This document shows, in pieces, positions 1,491 through 33,817 of a DNA stretch of 37,248 nucleotides. This DNA is from Anaerolineae bacterium (GTDB taxonomy: Bacteria > Chloroflexota > Anaerolineae > Aggregatilineales > Phototrophicaceae): assembly GCA_025454525.1 (NCBI GenBank), contig JALOOG010000046.1, positions 1 through 37,248 of the forward strand, given 5' to 3'. How positions within the stretch are numbered: position 1 is the stretch's first letter; each line of letters starts with the position of its first letter. The position numbers and the translations under genes are program-made. A model generated the notes under the pieces. It was not told the DNA's origin. It did no database searches and saw only the letters and a program-made list of their open reading frames with translations.

Positions 1491-2828
1491 ATGCAAACAT
1501 CCAATTTAGATTACGGGCGCGTCATACCGATTTTCGCGCTCACCTTTGTCGATATTCTTGGCTTAACGATCATTTTGCCACTGTTACATCTCTATGCGGT
1601 GACTTTTGGCGCAACCCCGCTTGAAATTGGACTCGTGGCGGCCGCTTTTCCCCTCGCACAATTGATCGGTGTGCCATTCATGGGCGTGTTGTCGGATCGC
1701 TTCGGTCGCAAGCCTCTTTTGTTAATCAGTCAGATCACCACCTTGATCGGTTTTTTGATGTTAGCCTTTGCCAATTCTCTGGCTTTGGTGATCCTCTCAC
1801 GGGTGATTGACGGTTTATTCGGCGCAAATATCGCCACGGCACAAGCCGCGCTTAGCGATATCACCACCGATGAAAATCGCACACAAGGCTTAGGCATCAC
1901 TGGGGCCGCTTTTGGTTTAGGTTTTGTGATCGGCCCGGTGATCGCCTTATTGACTTTAGAATTTACGGATAGCTTGGCCTTACCCGCATTGATCGCCGCT
2001 TTATATTCGTTTTTATCGATTTTACTGACCCTATTTGTCTTTAAAGAGACCTTACCTCCCGAACGACGCTCTTTGACTCGATCCCGCGCTCCGTGGCCGA
2101 TCCGATCCTCGCTCTTGATCTTATTGATCCTAATGTTCGCGCAACAAGTGATCTTTTTTGGTTTCGAGAGTCTTTTAGGGTTATTTACCTTGAGTCGTTT
2201 AGGGTTATTAGGACAAGGGAACGCCTTGTTATTCGTCTTTGTGGGAGTCTTGTTGGTGATCGTGCAAGTCCGTTTTATCGGCAAATGGAGTCGGCGTTTC
2301 GGTGATCATCGTTTGGTTCACCTCGCGTTAGGCCTATTGGCTTTGGGTTTGATCTTACTATCATTGACTCCCGCGCAACCTCACCCGTTTTATGTGCGCC
2401 CCTTGGTGGAATATGAGATCGCGCAATTACGCCCTAGTGGTACAGAGGCAATCATTGGTGAGATCGCGGTATCATTACCCTTAGAACAGCAACGCGGGGT
2501 AGGGGGGATTCTTTGGACATTGTTCGCGGTTATCCCAATTTCGATCGGCGCGGGTTTGATTCGCCCTAGCTTAAATAGCCTGATGACTCGGCAAGTCGGG
2601 CCGGAGCATTACGGACGTGTTTTAGGGTTTAGTGCGGCCACTGTCAGCGCGGCAAATGCGGCCGCACCCTTATTAGGTGGCCTGATCTTTCAACAAATGG
2701 GTGAACTTGCGCCGTTTTTATGGGGTGGAATCATCATGACCGTGTTATTTTTAGTTAGTCTGTTTGCGGTGCGATCGGTGCGATCAGTGGGAGAACGTTC
2801 AGATTTATCGACGACACGGACTCCCTAA
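1491..2828 (+). CDS. MFS transporter, DHA1/TetA-like drug efflux type
   Basis: The 445-residue product is an integral membrane protein with about twelve hydrophobic helices. It belongs to the major facilitator superfamily: the motif A loop GVLSDRFGRKP follows the second helix at about residues 65-75, and a motif C-like GFVIGP sits in the fifth. The N-terminus (FVDILGLTIILPLL) resembles TetA and related 12-TM proton antiporters, which export drugs or metabolites in exchange for protons. A hydrophilic segment of roughly 50 residues (about 300-350, rich in Glu, Arg and Pro) between helices of the C-terminal half is longer than usual. The substrate cannot be read from sequence. A GAGG site precedes the ATG closely. 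The lipoprotein gene follows after 34 bases and may be co-transcribed. Confidence 0.88.
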   Translation: MQTSNLDYGRVIPIFALTFVDILGLTIILPLLHLYAVTFGATPLEIGLVAAAFPLAQLIGVPFMGVLSDRFGRKPLLLISQITTLIGFLMLAFANSLALVILSRVIDGLFGANIATAQAALSDITTDENRTQGLGITGAAFGLGFVIGPVIALLTLEFTDSLALPALIAALYSFLSILLTLFVFKETLPPERRSLTRSRAPWPIRSSLLILLILMFAQQVIFFGFESLLGLFTLSRLGLLGQGNALLFVFVGVLLVIVQVRFIGKWSRRFGDHRLVHLALGLLALGLILLSLTPAQPHPFYVRPLVEYEIAQLRPSGTEAIIGEIAVSLPLEQQRGVGGILWTLFAVIPISIGAGLIRPSLNSLMTRQVGPEHYGRVLGFSAATVSAANAAAPLLGGLIFQQMGELAPFLWGGIIMTVLFLVSLFAVRSVRSVGERSDLSTTRTP

Positions 2829-2862
2829 CGTAAGGTGTGTTTTGTAAATTTCAAGAGGGACT

Positions 2863-3387
2863 ATGATGCGTATATTGCTCTTTGTGTTAATGTTGATGTT
2901 ATTGACCGCGTGTAATCTCACGACCCCTAATTCCACACCTACTGATGAGATTTTACTCTCAACATCAACGGTAGAACCGATCCCTAGTTCACCTACCTTG
3001 AGCGTTAATCCGACCGCGAATAACATCACGCCGATCCCCCCTTCCCCTAGCGTTACTGTGATCAATGTCACCCCGGACGCGACTCCTAGTCCGGTGGTAG
3101 ACGGAGATTTCCCGACCACGTTTATCGAAAGTTATGCGATTGCCGCCCGTCAAGGTCAACAAATTGAGATCAGCTATGATGTCACGATCAACAATCCTAA
3201 CGATGGACGGGTATATTTTTTAGTGCGTGATCCCAATGGAGCAGAGGTAACACGATTAACGATCATGACCACTGAAAGCGATGTGCTGATCGTGGATGCT
3301 CAAATTAGCGGTGAGTATCGCTTTTATGCCACCCCGCGTAACCTTCAGGGGAATTATCGCACATCGTATCAATTACAAAATCCATAG
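2863..3387 (+). CDS. Small exported lipoprotein with Pro/Thr-rich stalk
   Basis: The 174-residue product begins with a short basic start, a leucine-rich hydrophobic core and a lipobox LTAC (Cys17), so it should be cleaved and lipid-anchored on the outer face of the membrane. Residues 18-80 form a Ser/Thr/Pro-rich stalk. Residues 85-174 form a compact beta-rich domain (IEISYDVTINN, GRVYFLVRDPNG, GEYRFYATPRN) reminiscent of PPC or emp24-like sandwich domains; no confident family was recognised. An AGAGGGA site lies ahead of the ATG, and an in-frame ATG directly follows the first. It sits 34 bases behind the MFS gene, and an 8-bp hairpin follows its stop. Role unknown. Confidence 0.75.
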   Translation: MMRILLFVLMLMLLTACNLTTPNSTPTDEILLSTSTVEPIPSSPTLSVNPTANNITPIPPSPSVTVINVTPDATPSPVVDGDFPTTFIESYAIAARQGQQIEISYDVTINNPNDGRVYFLVRDPNGAEVTRLTIMTTESDVLIVDAQISGEYRFYATPRNLQGNYRTSYQLQNP

Positions 3388-3395
3388 AGGGATCA

Positions 3396-3418
3396 AAGGG
3401 CATGGATGACATGCCCTT
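3396..3418. terminator. Hairpin between convergent genes
   Basis: AAGGGCAT (3396-3403) and ATGCCCTT (3411-3418) form a perfect 8-bp stem with a 7-base loop, placed between the convergent lipoprotein and SufT-like genes. There is only a poor T-run on either side. It may end transcription from both directions. Confidence 0.5.
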
Positions 3419-3427
3419 CAGTCCATA

Positions 3428-3736
3428 TTAGAATAATCCCCAGTCGTCGGCCGCGCCGTCTTCCATCATGCTAGGATCCCACAGTTCAAGCCCCATTTCG
3501 ATCGTTGTGGGGACTTTGAGATATTCTTGGGCGGTGCGGCGGCTTTGTTCTAACAATTGCGGTGCATACGGGCAAAACGGGGTGGTCATGATCATCGTGA
3601 TATGAGCGCGATCTTCATGGATCTCCATATCGCGGATCAGACCTAATTCAATGATGTTCATGCCGATTTCGGGATCGATCACCGCACGTAATGCTTCACG
3701 AACGCCTTCTTCTTTGCTGACAGTTTGATCACTCAT
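3428..3736 (-). CDS. MIP18/DUF59 family protein, SufT/PaaD-like iron-sulfur assembly factor
   Basis: The 102-residue protein carries the MIP18 (DUF59) signature: REALRAVIDPEIGMNIIELGLI near residues 13-34 and a later TTPFCPYAPQL with the conserved Cys. Relatives (SufT, eukaryotic CIA2, PaaD) help load or mature iron-sulfur proteins. It is divergent from sufC and shares its 230-base upstream region, which supports a role in the same pathway. The frame stays open for 59 more codons upstream, but the ATG at 3736 is preferred: AGAGGA sits at the right distance on the minus strand, and the protein then matches the usual ~100-residue family length. The C-terminal tail (DPSMMEDGAADDWGLF) is acidic and unusual. 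Function is inferred from family and neighbourhood. Confidence 0.85.
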   Translation of the reverse strand: MSDQTVSKEEGVREALRAVIDPEIGMNIIELGLIRDMEIHEDRAHITMIMTTPFCPYAPQLLEQSRRTAQEYLKVPTTIEMGLELWDPSMMEDGAADDWGLF

Positions 3737-3866
3737 CGCTTTTCCTCTGTTTTGTCTCATGAAACTGTATAATAACACAGGAACACACCGAATTTCTACA
3801 ATCCCCATGATAAAAATTGAAGATGAGAGACGGGTAAGATAATTTTTCTCATAAGCATCATAAATA

Positions 3867-3965: not shown

Positions 3966-4748
3966 ATGGGCGCAACACTCGAAATTCGTAACCTTCATGC
4001 AGCCGTAGCCGAAGATCATAAACCAATTTTACGCGGCGTGAATTTGACCATTAAACAAGGCGAAGTTCATGCCTTGATGGGCCCCAACGGTTCGGGTAAG
4101 AGTACCCTTGCCAACGTGTTGATGGGCAATCCCGCTTATGAAATTACTGATGGCGACATCTTATACAACGGTGAAAGCGTTCTGGAAATGGAACCGGATG
4201 AACGCAGCCGCGCCGGTTTGTTTCTCGCTTTTCAATATCCGGTGGCGATTCCCGGTGTCACCCTCGCTAATTTCTTGCGTCATGCCATCAATGCCCGCAT
4301 GAAAGCCAAAGATCCCGAATCAAAAGGCATTTCGATCCCCGATTTTCGCCGTTTGATGCGTGGCAAGATGGATCAATTGAAGATGGATCACAGCTTTGCC
4401 GGCCGTTATTTGAACGAAGGTTTTAGTGGTGGTGAGAAAAAACGCGCCGAGATCTTACAAATGGCCGTGCTTGAGCCAAATATGGCGATCTTAGACGAAA
4501 CCGACTCCGGTTTAGACATTGACGCACTCCGGATCGTTTCAGATGGGGTGAATACCTTGATGGGCCCCGGCTTAGGGGTATTGGTGATCACGCACTATCA
4601 ACGCTTGTTGAACTACATCAAGCCGCAATACGTGCATGTGATGTTTGAAGGTCAATTGGTTGAAAGCGGCGGCGCGGATCTCGCGTTGAAGTTAGAAGAA
4701 ACCGGTTACGATTGGATTCGCGAAAAATACGGTGTTGTCACTGAATAG
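3966..4748 (+). CDS. sufC: SufC, iron-sulfur assembly ABC ATPase
   Basis: The 260-residue protein is the soluble ABC ATPase of the SufBCD scaffold, which builds iron-sulfur clusters in the cytoplasm. Visible motifs are Walker [10 protein letters not shown] (about residues 38-46), a Q-loop in LAFQYPV, the SufC-type signature FSGGEKKR, Walker [13 protein letters not shown] (the SufC form, with DE.DSGLD rather than the transporter form) and the switch His in [10 protein letters not shown]. Length matches the family (about 250). ATP binding by SufC dimers drives rearrangement of SufB-SufD so that the cluster can form. It is first in the cluster, behind the promoter at 3867-3895, and sufB follows after 46 bases. 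Confidence 0.97.
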
Positions 4749-4794
4749 TGAATAGTTAAACAAATTGATGTTGAGTTGAATAGGTAGGGAAACC

Positions 4795-7700
4795 ATGACC
4801 GACGAGATTTTGAGCGACAAGCAGCTTACACAAGAAGAATCCCAACTAAAAGACATGCGGGCATCCTATGACGAAACCTACGGTTTCCATGATGATGATG
4901 TGCATTATAGCTTCAAGAGCGAAAAAGGGCTGAATGAAGACATCGTGCGTCAGATCAGCCAGATGAAAAATGAGCCGGATTGGATGTTACAACAACGCTT
5001 AGAGGCGTATCGGATCTTCTTAAGCAAACCGACTCCCCAATGGGGCGGTGAGCTGAACAAGATCGATTATGATGACATTTACTACTATGTGCGTGCTACC
5101 GATCAAAAAGGCCGTTCATGGGATGAAGTCCCGGCCGAAGTCAAACGTACCTTTGATCGGCTTGGGATTCCGGAAGCGGAACAAAAGTATTTGCAAGGGG
5201 TCAGCGCACAATATGACTCGGAGTCGGTTTACCACAGCATCCGCAAAGATCTAGAAGAAAAAGGCGTGATCTTCCTGGATATGGATTCGGGACTCGCGCA
5301 ATATCCTGATCTGGTCAAAGAATATTTCGGCACGGTGATCCCGTCATCCGATAACAAATTTGCCGCCTTGAATACGGCGGTATGGTCGGGTGGGTCATTT
5401 ATCTATGTGCCGCCCGGTGTGCATATCGATATGCCGTTACAAGCGTATTTCCGCATCAACACTCAAAACATGGGACAGTTTGAACGCACCCTCATCATCG
5501 TTGATAAGGATTCATACGTTCATTACGTTGAAGGGTGTTTGCCAGCAGGTGAATTGATCAGTAAAGGGGATCGTTGGGTCAATATCGAGTCGATTTCCCC
5601 TGGAGACACCGTTATGGATAGCGACGGCAATCAAGCCGTTGTGAAAAATGTCCGCGTAGTGCCTTTCAAAGGCGATATGTTGACCATTCGCCCCATTTCA
5701 CAAGCAAATGCTTTCCAATTGACCCCTGAACATCCTGTCTTAACGGTTAAACGTAAAGATGTTGCTGTCGCTCGTAGTCGTAGAGGCTGGAAAGCCGAAG
5801 TAGACACTAAGAAATTATTGGCCGCGCATCCCGAATTTCTACCAGCTGGTGAATTGGAAGAAGGGGATTTCATCATATTTCCGATCTCCAAATTGACTCG
5901 CGAGAATCCGAAATACACGGTTCCGATGATGCGTTTATTAGGCTACTACTTGGCTGAAGGTAGTGCTTATATCCACAAACAATTGAACCAAGCGGTCGTG
6001 AGCTTCACGTTTAACCAAACTGAACGCGAGTACATTGATGAGGTGAAATCCCTTATTGAGGAGATTACAGGTAAAAAAGCCATGGAAATCGCTCAAACTG
6101 AGCGCCATGGTGTTGAGGTACGTGTTTACTCACGCTCACTGATGGATCTATGTGTCACTGATTGCGGTAAAGGTGCGGCCACTAAACAATTGAGTAAGGA
6201 CATCATGGAACTCCCTGTGGCCTTACAAAAGGAATTGTTGGAAACCTACTTTAATGGTGACGGTAGTGTTTATACCAAGCGCAAACACCTGATGATTCGC
6301 GCTGCCACCGTTTCCCAACAATTGGCTTGGCAATTGCAGGAACTTTTAGCGCGTCAAGGCTATTATGCGACTATCAGCATTCGTAAGGGCGGGAAAGATA
6401 CTATCCTTGGACGTGAGATCACGCGCCGCGATCAATACATCATCTACTATTCGCCTGATAAACAACAGAGCGAGATTCGCAAAGGTAACGGTTACTTCTT
6501 AGTTCCGATTAAGAAAATTGATCGCACGCCATTTGAAGGCCCTGTGTTCAACTTTGAACTTACGAGTGCGCCTAATGCCTATACCGCACGCGGTTTCGCA
6601 GTTCATAATTGTACTGCACCAAGCTATAGCTCTAATTCGTTACACAGTGCAGTTGTCGAAATCATGGTAAAAGAAGGCGCACGTTGTCGCTATACCACCA
6701 TCCAAAATTGGTCGAACAATGTGTATAACCTTGTGACCAAACGTGCGATCGCTAATAAAAATGCGACGATGGAATGGGTGGACGGGAATCTCGGCTGTTT
6801 GGCCGAAGGCTCACAGGTCACGACACCTCATGGCACCAGAACGATTGAGTCACTCAACATTGGTGATGAGGTGCTTTCGTTTAACGAAAAAACCGGACAA
6901 TTGTGCTTCCGTAAAGTCACGGCCAAGAAATTCTCCGGTTATCAACCTGTTCATACTGTGTCAGTAGGCGAACGTCAACTCCAAGTCACAGCGAATCATC
7001 CGTTTTTCTCGTATATCTATGAGCCAGAGAGTTCTAAGAAATTGGAACCTTATCAATTGGCTTACGTTCGCGCTGATCAACTGAAACAAGCGATTGTGCC
7101 TCGTACCTCAATGGAGTATGGCCAACTTTATGAAATGAATCAATACAGCCCTAATCTAACGATGGTTCGCGACCACTCCTCTAAGTTGAAATTAGGTCAA
7201 CGTACCAACGAGGAGTTAGCGAGGTTACTGGGCTTAAGTGAAGCAGTCGAAATTGTGAAAGTGGAAGTTTCAGAAGCTTCTAGCGAACTTGTCCCCACTT
7301 GGGACATTGAAGTTGAAGAAACCGCCAATTTTGTCGCACAAGGCTTTATCGTTCACAATTCCCATCTCACTATGAAGTATCCTGCTGTCATATTAGCGGG
7401 TGAAGGCGCTCATGGCGAAGTCCTTTCGATCGCTTTTGCAGGCGAAGGTCAACACCAAGACGCGGGCGCGAAGATCACCCATCTTGCGCCAAATACCACG
7501 AGTCAGATTATCAGCAAATCGATCAGCAAAGACGGTGGACGCGCCAGTTATCGCGGTCTGCTCAAGATCGTAGAGGGTGCAGATAACGTCAAGAGCAATG
7601 TCGTCTGTGACGCGCTTCTTTTAGATGATCGCAGCCGTTCCGATACCTATCCGGTGATCGAAGTAGACGCGAAAAATGTCACGATGGGGCATGAGGCCTC

Positions 7701-7881
7701 GGTGAGCCGCATCGGAGAAGATCAACTCTTCTATCTGATGTCACGCGGCATGAGTGAAGACGAAGCCAACGCGATGATCGTTAACGGTTTCATTGAGCCA
7801 CTGGTGAAAGAATTACCGATGGAATATGCGCTAGAGATGAACCGCTTGATCCAAATTCAACTTGAAGGATCGATCGGCTAA
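4795..7881 (+). CDS. sufB: SufB, iron-sulfur scaffold protein, precursor with two inteins
   Basis: A single 1028-codon frame encodes SufB in three extein pieces: residues 1-247, 606-667 and 856-1028. Joined, they give 482 residues, the normal SufB length. SufB is the scaffold subunit of SufBCD on which the iron-sulfur cluster is assembled. Extein 1 ends in SYVHYVEG, extein 2 runs from CTAPSYSS to WVDGNLG, and extein 3 opens SHLTMKYP. The first insertion lies directly before the conserved Cys of the YVEGC motif (Cys606). A second Cys in the SNVVCDALLLD motif (residue 938) is likely the other functional thiol of the family. Without protein splicing the product could not be functional SufB. The ATG follows GTAGGGAAACC. 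sufC precedes by 46 bases and a hairpin follows. Confidence 0.97.
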   Translation: MTDEILSDKQLTQEESQLKDMRASYDETYGFHDDDVHYSFKSEKGLNEDIVRQISQMKNEPDWMLQQRLEAYRIFLSKPTPQWGGELNKIDYDDIYYYVRATDQKGRSWDEVPAEVKRTFDRLGIPEAEQKYLQGVSAQYDSESVYHSIRKDLEEKGVIFLDMDSGLAQYPDLVKEYFGTVIPSSDNKFAALNTAVWSGGSFIYVPPGVHIDMPLQAYFRINTQNMGQFERTLIIVDKDSYVHYVEGCLPAGELISKGDRWVNIESISPGDTVMDSDGNQAVVKNVRVVPFKGDMLTIRPISQANAFQLTPEHPVLTVKRKDVAVARSRRGWKAEVDTKKLLAAHPEFLPAGELEEGDFIIFPISKLTRENPKYTVPMMRLLGYYLAEGSAYIHKQLNQAVVSFTFNQTEREYIDEVKSLIEEITGKKAMEIAQTERHGVEVRVYSRSLMDLCVTDCGKGAATKQLSKDIMELPVALQKELLETYFNGDGSVYTKRKHLMIRAATVSQQLAWQLQELLARQGYYATISIRKGGKDTILGREITRRDQYIIYYSPDKQQSEIRKGNGYFLVPIKKIDRTPFEGPVFNFELTSAPNAYTARGFAVHNCTAPSYSSNSLHSAVVEIMVKEGARCRYTTIQNWSNNVYNLVTKRAIANKNATMEWVDGNLGCLAEGSQVTTPHGTRTIESLNIGDEVLSFNEKTGQLCFRKVTAKKFSGYQPVHTVSVGERQLQVTANHPFFSYIYEPESSKKLEPYQLAYVRADQLKQAIVPRTSMEYGQLYEMNQYSPNLTMVRDHSSKLKLGQRTNEELARLLGLSEAVEIVKVEVSEASSELVPTWDIEVEETANFVAQGFIVHNSHLTMKYPAVILAGEGAHGEVLSIAFAGEGQHQDAGAKITHLAPNTTSQIISKSISKDGGRASYRGLLKIVEGADNVKSNVVCDALLLDDRSRSDTYPVIEVDAKNVTMGHEASVSRIGEDQLFYLMSRGMSEDEANAMIVNGFIEPLVKELPMEYALEMNRLIQIQLEGSIG
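5536..6609 (+). other. Intein 1 in SufB (full-size, LAGLIDADG homing endonuclease)
   Basis: This 358-residue in-frame element runs from Cys248 to Asn605 of the precursor. Splicing block A opens with CLPAGELI, block B is LTPEHPVL (Thr and His of the TxxH motif), block F is PVFNFELTSAPNAYTARG, and block G ends FAVHN with the next extein residue Cys606. All catalytic positions are therefore present (Cys1, TxxH, His-Asn, Cys+1). Between the splicing halves are two dodecapeptides of a LAGLIDADG endonuclease, LLGYYLAEGSA and LLETYFNGDGSV, each with an acidic residue (Glu or Asp) in the active position, so homing activity may be intact. It is inserted at a highly conserved scaffold motif, as is usual for inteins. 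Confidence 0.93.
6796..7359 (+). other. Intein 2 in SufB (mini-intein without endonuclease)
   Basis: This 188-residue in-frame element spans Cys668 to Asn855 of the precursor. Block A is CLAEGSQVTTPHGTRTI, block B VTANHPFF (TxxH), block F PTWDIEVEETANFVAQG and block G FIVHN, followed by extein Ser856. The splicing residues are complete, with Ser as the +1 nucleophile instead of Cys. No LAGLIDADG or HNH motif is visible in the roughly 90 residues between blocks B and F, so this looks like a mini-intein that has lost its nuclease. It sits 62 extein residues after intein 1. Confidence 0.92.
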
Positions 7882-8127: not shown

Positions 8128-8622
8128 ATGAACGTTTCGGCACTTCCCAAACTGTTGATCGGCACGGCGTTAGCAATTGTGATCGTCGGGGGTGTGATCG
8201 CTTTTATCAGCGTGCAATTTGAGCTATATCTGATCATTGTCTTTCCGATTTTAATGGCAGCCATTGGTGGTTTTTTAGCCGCTTGGTGGTCAAAAGAGTT
8301 ACCGATCGACAACCGTCTGCTCATCGCGTTTTTAGCAGTGGTGCTAGGCTTGGCGATTTATGGGGCTTACCGCTTTGGCGAATATCTTTTTGTCTTGAAT
8401 GCTGCTGAAATTTCGATGTCGGCGATGTCTTTTGGAGAATTTTTAGAACTTTCCGCCAGCATGGGCATGAGTATCGGTGATGTTGGCAGTGGTTCAGGGG
8501 ATATGGAATTTAACGAACAATCAACCCAGATCTTCTGGTTAATTGAAATGGCTGTGATTGCCTTAACCAGTATCTATTTCGCGTTCAGTTCGCGTAAAAA
8601 TAGCCCGCTCTTAAACTCTTAG
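8128..8622 (+). CDS. Four-TM membrane protein of unknown function inside the suf cluster
   Basis: I do not recognise this 164-residue protein. Four hydrophobic helices are clear: about residues 9-31 (LLIGTALAIVIVGGVIAFIS), 34-56 (LYLIIVFPILMAAIGGFLAA), 67-90 (LLIAFLAVVLGLAIYGAYRF) and 132-155 (FWLIEMAVIALTSIYFAFSS). Helices 3 and 4 are separated by a Ser/Met/Gly-rich loop of about 40 residues (EISMSAMSFGEF, GDVGSGSGDMEF). There are no cysteines or obvious metal ligands. An excellent GAAGGAGA site precedes the ATG. sufD begins 14 bases after its stop, so the two are very likely co-transcribed and translated together. A link to SufBCD is suggested only by position. Confidence 0.75.
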   Translation: MNVSALPKLLIGTALAIVIVGGVIAFISVQFELYLIIVFPILMAAIGGFLAAWWSKELPIDNRLLIAFLAVVLGLAIYGAYRFGEYLFVLNAAEISMSAMSFGEFLELSASMGMSIGDVGSGSGDMEFNEQSTQIFWLIEMAVIALTSIYFAFSSRKNSPLLNS

Positions 8623-8636
8623 GAGAGATAACCACT

Positions 8637-9968
8637 GTGACTGTAGTAAGAAGGCGTTCAGGCGTAGATGCGCCTGTTTACACTTTAGAGGATGTACAAG
8701 CGTTAAGCGAAAAACACAATGAACCCCAATGGCTGCGCCAAGCCCGTCTTGCTTCTTGGGAGGTCTATCAAGATCTACCCATGCCTAGCGGTAAAGACGA
8801 AGATTGGCGACGTACAGACTTACGTCGGGTGCGTTGGGAAACCGTATCACCTTTAGCCCAAGCGAACGGTGCAACTGTGGACTCTGTGCCAACCAGCAAC
8901 CGTGAACCATTGCTGGGCAATGAAGGCGGCACGATGATCTTTGTGGACAGCAAATTGGTGAGCATGAGCTTAGCGGAGTCGCTCAAAGATCAGGGCATTA
9001 TCTTCACCGATTTGCTGACCGCTTGTATCGAACATGAAAAGCTTGTCCGTCCGAACCTGATGACCAAAGCGGTTTTACCTACCGATGGTAAGTTTGCCGC
9101 TTTGCACGCCGCGTTGTGGACGCATGGCGTATTTCTCTATGTGCCGCGTAACAAAGTTGTGGAATTGCCCTTCCATGCGGTGATGTATAACGCACATCAG
9201 GGCGCAAGTTTAGGGCATATCTTGATCGTGTTGGAAGAAGGCGCGCAAGCGACGATTCAAGTCGAATACGCCTCACCAGAACATTCACAACCCTCCACTT
9301 ACATCGGAGCGACTGAGTTGTTAGTAGGGGATGCGGCCAACTTGCGTTATGTCGCGCTTCAAGGCTGGAATCGTCAAACCTACGAGTTCACCCATCAACG
9401 CGCCCGCATTGGACGTGATGCTAACTTGGATTGGATCTTAGGGGTGATGGGGAGTGCGCTCACCAAGTCGTATATTGAGATCTTTACCGATGGTAAAGGT
9501 GCAAACGGACGGGTTTCTGGGTTTTTCTTTGCCGATCAAGATCAACACTTTGACTTAGACACCCAACAGAATCACAACGCACCGTTGACCACCACCGATC
9601 TGTTGTTTAAGGGCGCGGCCAAAGATGAGGCCCGCACGGTTTGGCAGGGCATGATCAAAGCGCTCCCCAAGATGCAAAAGATCGACGGTTTTCAGGCTAA
9701 TCGTAACCTTGTCTTGAGCGATCAAGCGCGTATGGATGGCATTCCTGGACTTGAGATCGAAGCGGACGATGTGAAATGCTCTCATGCGGCCACTTTCGGC
9801 ACCTTAGAAGCACAACCCATCCATTACTTGATGAGTCGTGGGATTCCGCGCAAAGAAGCCGAATTGATGGTGATCGATGGGTTCTTTGACGAGTTATTGC
9901 AACGTGTCCCCTTTGATCGTGTACGCGAACGTTTGCAAGCCGCGATCGAAGCGAAAATTTTAAGTTAA
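8637..9968 (+). CDS. sufD: SufD, iron-sulfur assembly scaffold subunit
   Basis: The 443-residue protein is the SufB paralogue that forms the SufBC2D complex and is needed for iron entry and cluster formation. It has the SufD architecture: an N-terminal helical part with PSGKDEDWRRTDLRRV near residue 50, a beta-helix core, and the C-terminal family motif DDVKCSHAATFGTLEAQPIHYLMSRGI near 380-405, in which Cys and His are candidate ligands at the SufB-SufD interface. Length is normal. The start is GTG at 8637, chosen because AGGAGAG sits nine bases before it and the following residues fit the family N-terminus. No intein is present, in contrast to sufB. A strong terminator follows. Confidence 0.95.
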   Translation: MTVVRRRSGVDAPVYTLEDVQALSEKHNEPQWLRQARLASWEVYQDLPMPSGKDEDWRRTDLRRVRWETVSPLAQANGATVDSVPTSNREPLLGNEGGTMIFVDSKLVSMSLAESLKDQGIIFTDLLTACIEHEKLVRPNLMTKAVLPTDGKFAALHAALWTHGVFLYVPRNKVVELPFHAVMYNAHQGASLGHILIVLEEGAQATIQVEYASPEHSQPSTYIGATELLVGDAANLRYVALQGWNRQTYEFTHQRARIGRDANLDWILGVMGSALTKSYIEIFTDGKGANGRVSGFFFADQDQHFDLDTQQNHNAPLTTTDLLFKGAAKDEARTVWQGMIKALPKMQKIDGFQANRNLVLSDQARMDGIPGLEIEADDVKCSHAATFGTLEAQPIHYLMSRGIPRKEAELMVIDGFFDELLQRVPFDRVRERLQAAIEAKILS

Positions 9969-11305: not shown

Positions 11306-11704
11306 ATGGATAATATGTATCGTGAGTACATTTTAGATCACGGCACTAATCCCCGTAACCGCGGGATATTAGATCCAGCCGACATCGATCATGAGGAAAA
11401 AAATCATTTGTGTGGGGATCGTTTGCGCTTAACGATCCAATTTGACGCAGATCATCGGATTGCCGCGCTCAATTGGGACGGAGAAGGCTGTGTCATCAGT
11501 CAAGCGACCGCTTCTATGTTGAGTGAAGATTTAATCGGCAAAACCGTTACAGACTTGGCTCGCTTGACTCGTCAAGATGTGTTAGATCTCTTGGGCATCC
11601 CGTTGACCATGAATCGGGAAAAATGTGCTTTATTATCTTTGCGGGTGATTAAAACCGCATTGTTCGGCGTTGAGGAATGGCAACGCACCTTAGACGAAGA
11701 ATAA
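11306..11704 (+). CDS. sufU: SufU, zinc-dependent sulfur acceptor for SufS
   Basis: The 132-residue protein is an IscU-fold sulfurtransferase that takes persulfide sulfur from SufS. The three cysteine motifs are present: NHLCGD (Cys-Gly-Asp, zinc ligands Cys and Asp), GCVISQATASMLS, and EKCALLSLRV near the C-terminus. NPRNRG near residue 17 is also characteristic. The segment between the second and third Cys has the SufU-type insertion, though it is shorter than in Bacillus, whose SufU is about 147 residues. The cluster lacks sufE, so SufU is presumably the only acceptor, as in Firmicutes and Actinobacteria. The gene is packed between sufS (3-base gap) and the Rieske gene (10-base gap). Confidence 0.94.
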   Translation: MDNMYREYILDHGTNPRNRGILDPADIDHEEKNHLCGDRLRLTIQFDADHRIAALNWDGEGCVISQATASMLSEDLIGKTVTDLARLTRQDVLDLLGIPLTMNREKCALLSLRVIKTALFGVEEWQRTLDEE

Positions 11705-28759: not shown

Positions 28760-29353
28760 AACAATGCCTATGACCTTGATATAATGACGATAAAAAGCAT
28801 TTATCCCCTAGGGTGTAACATAATTCTAACCTTTCTAACCGTAAAAAAAGTTTGAATGTTATGCCCTAAGCTATAGTATAACAAAAATATCGCCAAAATT
28901 GACCCAGAGTTTAATTTTTCAAACCAAAGCAATACAATTCTGGACACTTCCTAATCACCCATGTAAACTTTTATACGACTCTTGAGCAATTTTCAGAGAA
29001 AAACCACCCTGATCGCAAGGTTTATTGATAGTTTAATTCGTAAAAAGCGTGTTTGAAAAATCCTACCACCGACCCCCACTTCTCACCAAACTAGCGTCCA
29101 AATTTTACGGGTTTTTCGCTCATCTGTGCTATCATCATTCCGAGAGGCCTCATCAGCGCTTGAGAGTGAACCGATCCTTGTTTGCATAGTACAGTTTTTA
29201 GGTAGGTTCAAGTCTTACAACAGACCTTTCATTGTCATTATCATCATCGCAGGTCAGCGGAGGTGACATTTAGCAATTTTGACACAGCTTCTACCGTGTC
29301 TCGCTAGATATGAATTGTGTTATACTCACCGCAATCAACAGAGGGGAGGTCGT
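28760..29353. other. 594-base intergenic region between divergent genes
   Basis: No coding region is supported here. An imperfect inverted repeat pairs 28807-28821 (CCTAGGGTGTAACAT) with 28856-28870 (ATGTTATGCCCTAAG), with one mismatch and two G-U pairs, around a 34-base loop. The A/T-rich block around 28870-28940 and TATAAC/TATAGT strings offer promoter candidates for the minus-strand gene, none convincing. The right end carries the kinase promoter. No tRNA, CRISPR or clear riboswitch was seen. Confidence 0.6.
29318..29326 (+). promoter_or_regulatory. Extended -10 promoter of the kinase gene
   Basis: TG-T-TATACT (29318-29326) is an extended -10 element with no good -35 at the right distance. 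Transcription would begin near 29333, about 20 bases before the GTG at 29354, with GAGGGGAGGT at 29341-29350 as ribosome site. This supports the GTG as the start rather than the TTG 75 bases earlier, which would lie ahead of the promoter. Confidence 0.55.
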
Positions 29354-32300
29354 GTGGAGGATTGGAAAGGCCGCGTTATTCGGGGGTATGAACTCCGTGA
29401 ATTATTAGGGGTTGGGGGTTTTGGTATGGTTTACAGCGCTTATCAAGCGACTGTAAAGCGTGAAGTTGCGATCAAGATCATCTTACCTGAATCGGCAAAT
29501 AAACCTCATTTTATCCGTAATTTTGAGCGTGAAGCCGAATTGATCGCCCGCTTAGAACATCCTCACATCGTCCCCTTGTACGATTATTGGCGCGATCCCA
29601 CCGGGGCCTATATTGTCATGCGTTTGTTGCGTGGTGGAAGCGTGCGCGATTTGATCAAACGTGAAGGCGCATTTTCCATTGAAAAAACCGCCAAAATGTT
29701 AGAACAGATCGGTGATGCCTTATCGATCGCCCATTCTAAAGGGGTGATCCACCAAGACATGAAAACCGCCAATATCCTATTAGATGAGCTAGGCAATGCG
29801 TATCTCTCGGATTTTGGCATTGCTAAGGACTTAGCACGCCGTGATGAGATCCAAGACCCCTCAGAACAGAAGGTCTACGGTTCACCGGAGTACATGGCCC
29901 CCGAACAGATTCTCAACATTAGCGTAGATGCACGCGCCGATATTTACAGTTTGGGTGTGATGTTATTTGAGATGTTGACGGGACAAAAACCATTTGTCAC
30001 AGATGATGATGTAAAGCTCATTCAAAAGCAGCTTTATGAGCGTCTGCCGATGATGCACAGCGTTCGTACCGAAATTCCCCCTAATCTTGACATTGTGGTT
30101 CAACGCGCCACCGATAAAAACCCAAAATTGCGGTATTCAAACCCGCGTGAAATGGCGCTCAATTTCCGCCAATTTGTCACACTTAACGCCACACCTACGA
30201 TCAATAGTTTTGAAACACCCACCACAGATCACCTAGAAAGCAAGCCTAAACTCGCTTTGGTCAACCCTTACAAGGGGTTACGTGCCTTTTTTGAGGCGGA
30301 TGCTCAAGATTTTTTTGGTCGGGAAAAGATGATCGAGCGTTTGTATCGTCGAATGCTTGAACCCGGTGCAGAGGCGCGCCTCTTGGTCGTCGTGGGTCCA
30401 AGTGGGAGCGGTAAATCCAGTGTGGTACGGGCGGGTTTATTGCCCGCATTGCGTGAAAACTTACCCAAGTGGTTTATCGCCTCAATGACTCCGAGTGCTA
30501 AACCGTTTGCTCAATTGGCAGAAGCGATCGCGAGTGTTGCTTCACATGAGACACCCGATTTAACGCTTCAGCTAAAAAGTGGTGTTGAGGGAATACATCA
30601 AGCATTACAAGTGGCTTTAGGCGCGGGTAAGCACCAATTGGTATTGTTGATCGACCAATTTGAGGAATTGTTTACCCAAGTTCAAGAAGAATCCGAACGA
30701 CAAAGGTTTATTGATAGTCTGTTATTTGCTCTGCAAGCCGAAAATAGTCGTTTACGGGTGATTTTGACGTTACGTGCTGATTTTTATGATCGCCCGCTGT
30801 TGTATGCCAATTTTAGCGAGTGGATTAGCAAGCGAACCGAGGTGGTATCGCCTTTGGCGGGTGATGAATTAGAACGCGCTATTGTCAAACCCGCCGAACG
30901 AGTGGGTTTAACCATTGAGGACGGCTTAGTCAGCGAGATTATCACAGAAGTGAGCAAAGAGCCGGGTGTGTTACCGTTGCTCCAATTTGCCCTAACCGAA
31001 CTCTATAACCAAAGTCTCTCTAAAAACCCCGATCAAGAAGACCCGATGTTGACCATTAAGGCCTATCATGTCAGTGGGGGAGTGACCGGGGCGATGACTC
31101 GCCGTGCTGAAACCTTGTTTGAGCAGATGAATGATGATGTAAAGTTGATCACCGAACGGTTATTTCTCCGCCTTGTCACCCCCGGCGAAGGCGTTGAGGA
31201 TACCCGCCGACGTGCTTTGCTCTCTGAACTTTTATCGTTGGTGGATCAACCCCATGTGATGCAAACGGTGATCGATCAATTTGGCCATTTCCGTTTGTTA
31301 TCCTTTGATCGGGATGCGTCTAGCCGTGAACCGACCGTTGAGATCGCACATGAAGCATTGATCCGCAGTTGGGGGCGTTTGCGTGGTTGGTTACGCGAAA
31401 ATCGGCGCTTGGTGATGTTGCAACGTGAATTATTTGCCGAAACCAACCGTTGGTTACAGGCAAATCGGGATCAAAGTTATTTGCCTGTTGGCAAGCGCTT
31501 AAATCGCCTTGAAGAATTGTTAGATGCTCGGGCCGTGCCATTGAGTCCGGATGAACGATCATTTTTACAATCGGGGGTCGCTCTGCGAACGCTAAACGAA
31601 CGCATCCGAAAAGGTTTATTTGCTTTGGCATTATTTGCCGCCTTATTTTTTGCACTCTTAGCGATGTTTGCCACCGAACAGAGTCGTGCCGCCCAAGTGG
31701 CCCGCTCAGATGCAGAGCAAGCGCGGGATCTTGCAGAATTATCCGATCGCGAGTCCCGTTCGCGTGAATTAGCGATCCGTGCGTTGACAGGGCAATCACA
31801 CTTTGATTGGGCTTTGCTCACCAGCGTCGAGGCCTTACAGACGGCCGACACCTTTGAGGCACGTAACACCTTATTGACCACCTTACAAGCGCAACCCCGC
31901 CTTAAAGGCCTTTTGCAAGGGCAACAAGATCACATTCGGGCGATCGCCTATAGTCCAGATGGGCGTTGGATTGCGTCCGCCGGCCGTGATCAACAGGTGA
32001 TGATCTGGGATCTTCAAACCGGATCGCTTGTTCAACAATTTCAGCACAATGAGCGTGTGAATGCAGTCATGTTTAGCCATGATAATCGCTGGGTGATCTC
32101 AGGGGGGGCGGATGATGCCGTGCGAATTTGGGATCGTGAGACAGGGCAGCCCATCGGCGATCCGCTGATTTTAACGGATGATGTTTGGGCTTTGGCTTTG
32201 AGTCCCGATGGACGGGTGTTGATTGCGGCTGGTGCTGATGACTTGATCTATCGTTGGGATCTCAACACGCACGAACCAATCGGTACACCTTTACAGGAGG

Positions 32301-33817
32301 CCGGGGATATTTATACCTTAGCTTATCATCCTAACGGGGAAATTTTTGCCTCTGCTGGTATGGAAGGGGGAATCCGATTGTGGGATGCTCAAACCGGTGA
32401 GCGGATCGGCGAACCTTTAACCGCACATCGCAATTGGATCTGGGAAGTAGAATTTAGCCCCGATGGAAACCTACTCGCATCCACAGGCAACGATCAAACC
32501 TTGATCTTTTGGGATGTCATTCAACGTCAACCTTTAGGCGAACCCTTGTTAGCGCATGAGGGATTGGTGCGAACGCTTGATTTTGACCCGTCGGGACGTT
32601 TATTGGTTACGGGGGGAGCGGATGGTCGATTGATCTTTTGGGATGTTTTGACCCGTAGACCGATCAGCGCGATTAACCACTTAGAGCAATCGCGTGTTTG
32701 GGGGGTAGATTTTAACCCTGATGGCACAGTTTTAGCCTCGGTGGGTGAAACGGATGCTGTGATCCTTTGGGATTGGCAAGCGCGTTCTGTTTTGGCTGCG
32801 CCTTTTCAGGGACATGATCAACCGATTGCCGGACTTGCCTTTGCCGGGGAAAGTTTACTCTCCTTGACCAATCCAATTGAGAGTGAGCTAGGCTTAAATG
32901 TCTTGCGTCAATGGAATTTGGCCGATCAAACTTATACCGAGACCCGTTTGACAGAAGCTACACCGCGCTTAGTAACCGCATTTGCGCTTGATCCTGTTCA
33001 TTTAACGGTAGCTACCGGGGATATTCAAGGTCATGTCTACCTAGATACCCCGTCTAATCCAACCGTCGATCTTAAATTGGGTAACGCGATCATCTTTGCC
33101 TTAGCTTTTGATCCCACCGGTGATCGCTTGGCAATCGGTGATGCAACAGGCCAGATCACTTTATGGCAACGTGAGGGTGATCAATGGACGCGCTTGGGTG
33201 AGCCGTTAATCGGTCATCAAGATCGGATCTTGACACTTGCCTTTAATCGAGACGGCACACGATTAGCCTCTGGTAGCCGTGATACAAGTGTCCGTTTATG
33301 GCATGTGGAGACAGGTCAAGCGGTATTCGATCCGTTGATAGGGCATAATCAAGCTGTGGTAAGTTTAGCTTTTCATACGGATCGTTTAGCGTCCGGTGGA
33401 CGGGATAATGCGATCCTCTTATGGGATCTTCAGAGCGGTCAAGCGCTTCAAACGCTAAATGTGCATACGGATTGGGTGAATAGTTTGACCTTTAGCGCCG
33501 ATGGCCGTTATTTAGCGTCTGGCAGTCGTGATCAAACTGTGATTCTTTGGGATATGAGGCAAGAAACGGTGACTCCGATCGGTCAGCCGTTTGTTGGGCA
33601 TCAGACTTCAGTGAATGCCGTGGTTTTTACCCCTGATCAACGTCTTTTGGTCTCTGGTGGAGAAGACGGTTTGATCCTTGCATGGTCAATTGACCCGCAT
33701 GATTGGCAAATTTTGGCATGTCAAATCGCGAATCGGGATCTTAATCCTATGGAATGGCGTGATCTAATGCGTGAATGGCCTTATCGTCCGACTTGTAGCG
33801 AGGAAATTCGATCATGA
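29354..33817 (+). CDS. Ser/Thr protein kinase fused to nSTAND1 NTPase, TM helix and 14 WD40 repeats
   Basis: The 1487-residue protein has four parts. Residues ~10-275: a Hanks-type kinase with GVGGFGMVY loop, Lys41 (VAIK), HQD at 133-135 in place of the usual HRD, DFG at 153-155 and SPEYMAPEQ. Residues ~305-740: an nSTAND1-type NTPase opening NPYKGLRAFFEADA, with Walker A GPSGSGKSS at 348-356 and Walker B LLIDQFEELF. Residues ~753-773: one hydrophobic helix, followed by a short charged coil. Residues ~850-1470: 14 WD40-type blades, enough for two seven-bladed propellers, ending with a Cys-rich tail (ILACQIANRDL, YRPTCSEE). The kinase and NTPase would be cytoplasmic and the propellers outside if the helix spans the membrane once. 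Such fusions are known from filamentous bacteria; the signal sensed is unknown. It is translationally coupled to the next gene. Confidence 0.93.
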   Translation: MEDWKGRVIRGYELRELLGVGGFGMVYSAYQATVKREVAIKIILPESANKPHFIRNFEREAELIARLEHPHIVPLYDYWRDPTGAYIVMRLLRGGSVRDLIKREGAFSIEKTAKMLEQIGDALSIAHSKGVIHQDMKTANILLDELGNAYLSDFGIAKDLARRDEIQDPSEQKVYGSPEYMAPEQILNISVDARADIYSLGVMLFEMLTGQKPFVTDDDVKLIQKQLYERLPMMHSVRTEIPPNLDIVVQRATDKNPKLRYSNPREMALNFRQFVTLNATPTINSFETPTTDHLESKPKLALVNPYKGLRAFFEADAQDFFGREKMIERLYRRMLEPGAEARLLVVVGPSGSGKSSVVRAGLLPALRENLPKWFIASMTPSAKPFAQLAEAIASVASHETPDLTLQLKSGVEGIHQALQVALGAGKHQLVLLIDQFEELFTQVQEESERQRFIDSLLFALQAENSRLRVILTLRADFYDRPLLYANFSEWISKRTEVVSPLAGDELERAIVKPAERVGLTIEDGLVSEIITEVSKEPGVLPLLQFALTELYNQSLSKNPDQEDPMLTIKAYHVSGGVTGAMTRRAETLFEQMNDDVKLITERLFLRLVTPGEGVEDTRRRALLSELLSLVDQPHVMQTVIDQFGHFRLLSFDRDASSREPTVEIAHEALIRSWGRLRGWLRENRRLVMLQRELFAETNRWLQANRDQSYLPVGKRLNRLEELLDARAVPLSPDERSFLQSGVALRTLNERIRKGLFALALFAALFFALLAMFATEQSRAAQVARSDAEQARDLAELSDRESRSRELAIRALTGQSHFDWALLTSVEALQTADTFEARNTLLTTLQAQPRLKGLLQGQQDHIRAIAYSPDGRWIASAGRDQQVMIWDLQTGSLVQQFQHNERVNAVMFSHDNRWVISGGADDAVRIWDRETGQPIGDPLILTDDVWALALSPDGRVLIAAGADDLIYRWDLNTHEPIGTPLQEAGDIYTLAYHPNGEIFASAGMEGGIRLWDAQTGERIGEPLTAHRNWIWEVEFSPDGNLLASTGNDQTLIFWDVIQRQPLGEPLLAHEGLVRTLDFDPSGRLLVTGGADGRLIFWDVLTRRPISAINHLEQSRVWGVDFNPDGTVLASVGETDAVILWDWQARSVLAAPFQGHDQPIAGLAFAGESLLSLTNPIESELGLNVLRQWNLADQTYTETRLTEATPRLVTAFALDPVHLTVATGDIQGHVYLDTPSNPTVDLKLGNAIIFALAFDPTGDRLAIGDATGQITLWQREGDQWTRLGEPLIGHQDRILTLAFNRDGTRLASGSRDTSVRLWHVETGQAVFDPLIGHNQAVVSLAFHTDRLASGGRDNAILLWDLQSGQALQTLNVHTDWVNSLTFSADGRYLASGSRDQTVILWDMRQETVTPIGQPFVGHQTSVNAVVFTPDQRLLVSGGEDGLILAWSIDPHDWQILACQIANRDLNPMEWRDLMREWPYRPTCSEEIRS

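Follow-up and report, generated by a model that had tools for sequence, protein, structure and literature searches.

Two distantly related inteins, one full-size and one mini, in the SufB of an Anaerolineae bacterium

The suf cluster and the sufB gene

The window, i.e. the whole stretch of 37,248 nucleotides that was analysed (contig JALOOG010000046.1 of assembly GCA_025454525.1), holds a suf cluster with genes for an ABC ATPase, SufB, SufD and a NifU_N protein. All features of the window described here are on the plus strand. The ABC ATPase (positions 3966-4748, PF00005) is presumably SufC, judging by the position of its gene. The sufD gene (8637-9968) encodes a SUFBD_core protein that reaches 245 bits against the SufB model, less than the cut-off of that model. 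The NifU_N protein (11306-11704), sufU by position, is the sole match of its kind found in the source genome. A second SufB was likewise not found in this genome, a draft of 230 contigs that is 97% complete. Because a single SufB and a single NifU_N protein were found, sufB is likely to be needed by its host, in line with the assumption of the preliminary description that the gene is essential. A 164-residue hydrophobic protein without a Pfam match at 1e-5 is encoded between sufB and sufD (8128-8622). Further along the window, a protein of 1512 residues (29279-33817) has kinase, nSTAND1 and WD40 matches.

The sufB gene is a single open frame of 1028 amino acids (4795-7881) without an internal stop. 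It matches TIGR01980 with 689 bits, compared to a cut-off of 346, in three pieces of this one frame. The pieces are an N-extein of 247 residues (4795..5535), a middle extein of 62 residues (6610..6795) and a C-extein of 173 residues, followed by the stop (7360..7881). They are separated by intein 1 (5536-6609) and intein 2 (6796-7359). The preliminary description had reported two in-frame inteins 62 extein residues apart and joined exteins of 482 residues, and the present analysis gives the same boundaries and the same sum (247+62+173). Insertion sites are named here after the last extein residue that precedes the insertion in the spliced SufB, the sites being 141, 247 and 309; genomes carry labels beginning with G, and loci or records labels beginning with L. 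The intein C-terminal model TIGR01443 scores above its cut-off on two stretches of the frame, the N-terminal model TIGR01445 on one, located on intein 2, and Pfam LAGLIDADG_3 matches two stretches, the better of which is on intein 1. The G+C content of the inteins (0.46 and 0.45) is close to that of the exteins (0.46-0.51), whereas at third positions it is lower in the inteins (0.46 and 0.44) than in the exteins (0.48-0.56).

The full-size intein at site 247

Class-1 inteins are recognized by Cys1, a TxxH sequence in block B, a penultimate His, a last Asn, and Cys, Ser or Thr at position +1. Intein 1, which is inserted at site 247 and consists of 358 residues, has this signature: C1, TPEH in block B, and a VHN end followed by C+1. 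It contains a LAGLIDADG homing endonuclease, of which both motifs and both catalytic acids are present, as had been described earlier for the motifs. Motif 1 (5935..5967) reads LLGYYLAEGSA with the acid E, and motif 2 (6235..6270) reads LLETYFNGDGSV with the acid D. Judged by its sequence, the endonuclease looks intact. The AlphaFold2 model of intein 1 has a mean pLDDT of 93, and its matches in the Protein Data Bank are endonuclease-bearing inteins, the best being the TliVMA intein with its endonuclease (VMA is, we assume, the V-ATPase). The TliVMA and PhoVMA inteins (7qsu, 7qst) resemble intein 1 in fold, a HINT domain combined with a LAGLIDADG domain, at a sequence identity of 14-16%.

Both catalytic acids are kept in 36 of the 39 site-247 intein members examined, the window included. 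The three exceptions, L142 (E to A), L143 (D to K) and L144 (E to K, D to N), form one clade (100/100) in which the acids have been lost in three different ways. In pairs among these three the dN/dS of the endonuclease segment is 0.05-0.08, with dS reaching 2.5; five pairs in which both acids are present gave 0.06, 0.06, 0.06, 0.11 and 0.48. Because the two sets of values resemble each other, the acid-less endonucleases are not visibly relaxed. Synonymous sites between the window's intein 1 and its kin are saturated, hence no dN/dS value was obtained for it. Site 247 is occupied by two related intein families (28% identity, E 8.7e-43).

The mini-intein at site 309

Intein 2, of 188 residues, also has a class-1 signature, namely C1, TANH in block B, and a VHN end followed by S+1. 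It has no LAGLIDADG motif, in agreement with the preliminary description, save for a remainder at a deletion scar that aligns with the beginning of motif 1 (its first three residues, LLG). The scar (7228..7239, the codons around G146/L147) joins the start of motif 1 to the former end of the endonuclease: the alignment matches the relatives of intein 2 up to LLG and picks up again at the endonuclease end. A further 12 residues are absent upstream of the main deletion when compared to the full-size kin. On the evidence of the alignment, intein 2 is an in-frame deletion derivative of an endonuclease-bearing intein of 405-407 residues, cut in LAGLIDADG motif 1. Confidence in the model of intein 2 is low (the pLDDT averages 62 and falls below 50 at residues 71-89 and 101-152). 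In the Protein Data Bank this model matches mini-inteins along with further domains of the splicing (HINT) type, the first match being the splicing domain of Mtu RecA.

The site-309 family to which intein 2 belongs comprises 24 full and 4 mini members. The full-size members are 405-407 residues long and have two LAGLIDADG motifs, with both acids in 23 of the 24; the lone exception is L142, in which D is changed to N in motif 2. The other minis are those of G050 (175 residues), G219 (172 residues) and G380 (167 residues). In the tree of the splicing domains the four minis require four changes, but just 7 of the 25 inner branches are starred. The deletion end points, compared in detail for the window and G050, provide better evidence: the deletion of the window begins in motif 1 and that of G050 elsewhere, which argues for separate losses of the endonuclease at site 309. 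At least two intein families are found at this site. The record L171, titled Acetothermia and placed by NCBI in the Bipolaricaulota, carries a full intein at site 247 and a 148-residue mini of another family at site 309. Since that mini is of a different family, this pairing of a full-size intein with a mini at the two sites has arisen more than once.

Inteins in the SufB of related genomes

SufB was surveyed in 61 genomes from the family and order of the window, whose own genome is among them. The protein is uninterrupted in 43 and interrupted in 8; in 4 it is truncated where a contig ends, and in 6 no match was obtained. Sites 247 and 309 are both occupied in five of the eight interrupted genes (the window's genome, G028, G042, G048 and G050), site 247 alone in G011 and G029, and site 309 alone in G004. 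The same pair of sites and intein families also occurs together in the named record L142. When 396 genomes of the class were searched with family profiles (E 1e-20 or better), the site-309 profile was matched in 32 genomes and the site-247 profile in 25. Some of these matches lie outside SufB, as 10 of the 56 loci fetched contain no SufB piece of more than 45% identity.

Genes with more than one intein were counted in 44 chosen loci, 38 loci of named records and the window; L138, L140, L144 and L154 were treated as repeats of genomes already read and counted once. At least two inteins were found in 20 distinct SufB genes: those of the window, G028, G042, G048, G050, G160, G196, G217, G219, G236, G239, G285, G306, G317, G401, L142, L146, L147, L149 and L171. 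The SufB of G306 (locus L119) has three inteins, of 404, 248 and 407 residues, at sites 141, 247 and 309 (2535-3746, 4065-4808 and 4995-6215, plus strand). Its middle intein is half-decayed, with motif 1 gone and the acid of motif 2 changed from D to N. In G026 two contigs (the end of L055 and the start of L054) break in sufB, at site 247 or no more than eight residues from it. Such breaks could fit a population that is mixed for the site-247 intein.

Other frames of the source genome carry intein signals as well. A frame of 1680 residues in C211 (L031), presumably a ribonucleotide reductase, shows the start signal as well as the end signal of an intein twice. A frame in C198 (L032), which we take to be DnaE-like, has a short intein. 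In C205 (L035, 1264-2091) a short frame whose start and end signals resemble those of an intein is probably of the pretoxin HINT kind, and the frame adjoining it is probably formylglycine-enzyme-like.

Carriage of the inteins by phages or plasmids was considered and rejected, the matches being weak or absent. No confirmed relative of intein 1 was found in viral contigs, and for intein 2 these yielded 12 loci with weak matches only (E 7e-7 at best, partial alignments of 20-56% identity). Six phage and two plasmid records matched, the best at about 28% identity. The 48 bases around site 247 are identical to those of the window at 21-36 positions in 35 occupied genes and at 29-41 positions in 29 empty genes (one of 30 was unread). 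Around site 309 the figure for the same 29 empty genes is 33-39 of 48. At these 48-base empty sites no nucleotide signal of a homing site beyond protein conservation was found.

Apparent movement of the site-247 intein between phyla

The titles of the records that contain relatives of the site-247 intein name Chloroflexota, Armatimonadetes, Eisenbacteria, Omnitrophota, Bipolaricaulota, Patescibacteria, Thermoplasmata, Nanoarchaeota and others. In 33 of 35 clean comparisons to the window the intein is less alike than the exteins, in some cases by less than one point; the alignments of L161 and L165 each fall into two pieces, and L172 is truncated. The reverse holds in two cases, namely L139, labelled as Armatimonadota, with 74.0% identity in the intein and 61.7% in the exteins, and the partial L153, with 51.9% and 47.2%, respectively.

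The intein tree places L139 with two genomes of the window's family (98/85), and the window joins next, weakly (82/48). In the extein tree L139 sits on a long branch with Thermoflexus (97/91), and the long-branch warning includes L139. An AU test rejected a tree in which nine Chloroflexota inteins stand together without L139 and two Eisenbacteria (p 0.0045), these excluded rows having been tested jointly. Another rejected a tree that joins the exteins of L139 to the exteins found in the window, L136 and L137 (p 0.002). The groups in both tests were chosen after the trees had been seen. A conflict between intein and extein trees is the pattern that horizontal movement would give, and the full intein has apparently passed from one phylum to another. 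Mis-binning of the L139 contig is possible; it would alter the name of the recipient, but the tree conflict would be unaffected. The tree for site 309 is poorly resolved. The 38 loci of named records did not include a mycobacterial record.

Insertion sites and the sulfur tunnel

Alignment with 5awf positions site 247 between G253 and C254 of E. coli SufB, and site 309 between G322 and S323. In E. coli, SufE hands sulfur to SufB C254, and a tunnel has been proposed to run from C254 to C405 (PMC5571166, PMC6006206). The middle extein begins with the equivalent of C254 and also holds those of H265, T283, Q285, W287 and K303, so that four of the eight named tunnel residues (H265, T283, Q285 and K303) are located between the two inteins. 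Of the remaining four, E252 is just before site 247, T326 and K328 are just after site 309, and E236 is further upstream. The window has the same residue as E. coli SufB at C254, H265, T283, Q285, W287, K303, T326 and K328. A precursor or a half-spliced SufB would presumably lack a complete sulfur tunnel. Inteins generally prefer conserved regions (PMC2814812).

Comparison with known systems

Among the closest known counterparts is the SufB intein (Pps1) of M. tuberculosis, which resides in the same host protein. As described in PMC8891592, it has 359 residues compared to the 358 of intein 1, shares with it Cys1, Cys+1 and the His-Asn end, and is preceded, as in the window, by an N-extein with His at -5 and -38. 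Intein 1 shows the marks of that insertion site, namely Gly|Cys+1, His -5 and His -38. By these marks, intein 1 occupies the same site as the M. tuberculosis SufB intein. M. tuberculosis SufB has one intein in the published accounts consulted, and the window has two (PMC8891592). The M. leprae SufB intein (SufB-b, 386 residues) is reported to lie, possibly, at a site other than that of M. tuberculosis (PMC8891592, PMC8861304, PMC5050341).

The DnaB of M. smegmatis, like the SufB of the window, combines a mini-intein (DnaBi1) and an endonuclease-bearing intein (DnaBi2) in one essential gene; however, it is a helicase and its mini-intein is of class 3, whereas both window inteins have class-1 signatures (PMC6195587). 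A review figure flags two-intein genes among mycobacterial DnaB, RecA and SufB (PMC8529194, legend). In the literature searched we found no publication on a SufB that carries more than one intein, from Chloroflexota or otherwise, and surveys elsewhere may contain one. The arrangement had been called unusual in the preliminary description. This is not supported, because 20 SufB genes with at least two inteins were found and the M. smegmatis case has been published.

Origin and fate of the two inteins

The sufB gene of the window, a Chloroflexota gene, has very probably been invaded separately by two class-1 inteins that presumably excise themselves, of which that at site 247 is full-size and seems to move horizontally and that at site 309 has decayed by deletion. 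The two inteins are only distantly related, and sites 247 and 309 belong to the three recurrent insertion sites (141, 247 and 309). By its sequence, the site-309 intein is a full-size intein that has lost its endonuclease by in-frame deletion. Each intein would leave the precursor autocatalytically, by formation of a thioester at Cys1, attack by Cys+1 or Ser+1 and cyclization of Asn, and the removal of both would yield a SufB of 482 residues. The homing cycle predicts empty, active, dysfunctional and mini states (PMC3229294). A full intein at site 247 together with a deletion mini at site 309 suggests that the former is in an invasive or fixed phase and the latter in a phase of decay, in support of the earlier proposal that the two are at different stages of this cycle.

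Both inteins have the HINT fold, reside in one gene and have family profiles with a distant resemblance (hhalign probability 98, E 1.4e-14, 11% identity), which would fit a duplication within sufB, in which one derived from the other. Against this, they are 24% identical over 76 residues, whereas the kin that occupy the respective site of each in other genomes are 58-79% identical to it; furthermore, the two families that share site 247 are nearer to each other than the two families of the window are. A duplication has therefore been rejected and retains practically no probability. The distance between the inteins would also argue against a cross-reaction that drops the middle extein. That the gene is a chimera of assembly or binning is scarcely credible, even in a draft of so many contigs: its frame is continuous and open, and the occupation of the same two sites by the same families in separate assemblies, four of them from related genomes and one the named record L142, speaks against an artefact, the possibility raised in the preliminary description. 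It is also highly improbable that intein 2, or both inteins, are dead for splicing and that the gene is dying or yields a partial protein. The 52 residues 101-152 of intein 2, a remnant of the endonuclease, are predicted at low confidence, but the splice-junction and block residues of both inteins are intact, the frame is open over all 1028 codons, and this is the sole SufB found in a nearly complete genome. Tandem splicing of the precursor is plausible.

The two inteins differ at the +1 position, and oxidation could halt intein 1 (Cys1, Cys+1) but not intein 2 (Cys1, Ser+1), thereby gating the supply of SufB. The Cys+1 of intein 1 is the equivalent of the sulfur-entry residue C254, inhibition of the M. 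tuberculosis SufB intein by a disulfide has been published (PMC8529194), and the two inteins of one DnaB respond unequally (PMC6195587). We nevertheless consider such a redox switch unlikely. SufB is uninterrupted in most genomes of the family and order, the Cys at +1 is set by the function of SufB and not by the intein, and a selfish element fits both the tree conflict and the decay by deletion. A broader version of this idea is decidedly doubtful. According to it, the SufB of Anaerolineae and their neighbours would be an intein trap with three sites, two of which flank part of the tunnel and, through Cys+1 and Ser+1, would provide a two-lock, redox-graded control of Fe-S supply, with the dead endonuclease of L142-L144 as if kept for another use.

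Separate invasion followed by decay at site 309 accounts for a two-intein SufB that is real and of an already known kind, and its value is that of a comparative series. Across the relatives of the window, sufB displays most states of the homing cycle, from empty to live-looking, point-mutated and endonuclease-deleted, and does so at two or three sites. Because the extein can serve as an internal clock, this series would make the order of invasion, the rate of decay and the transfer between phyla testable. The SufB of the window itself provides a two-intein precursor in which the first +1 residue corresponds to the cysteine where sulfur enters.
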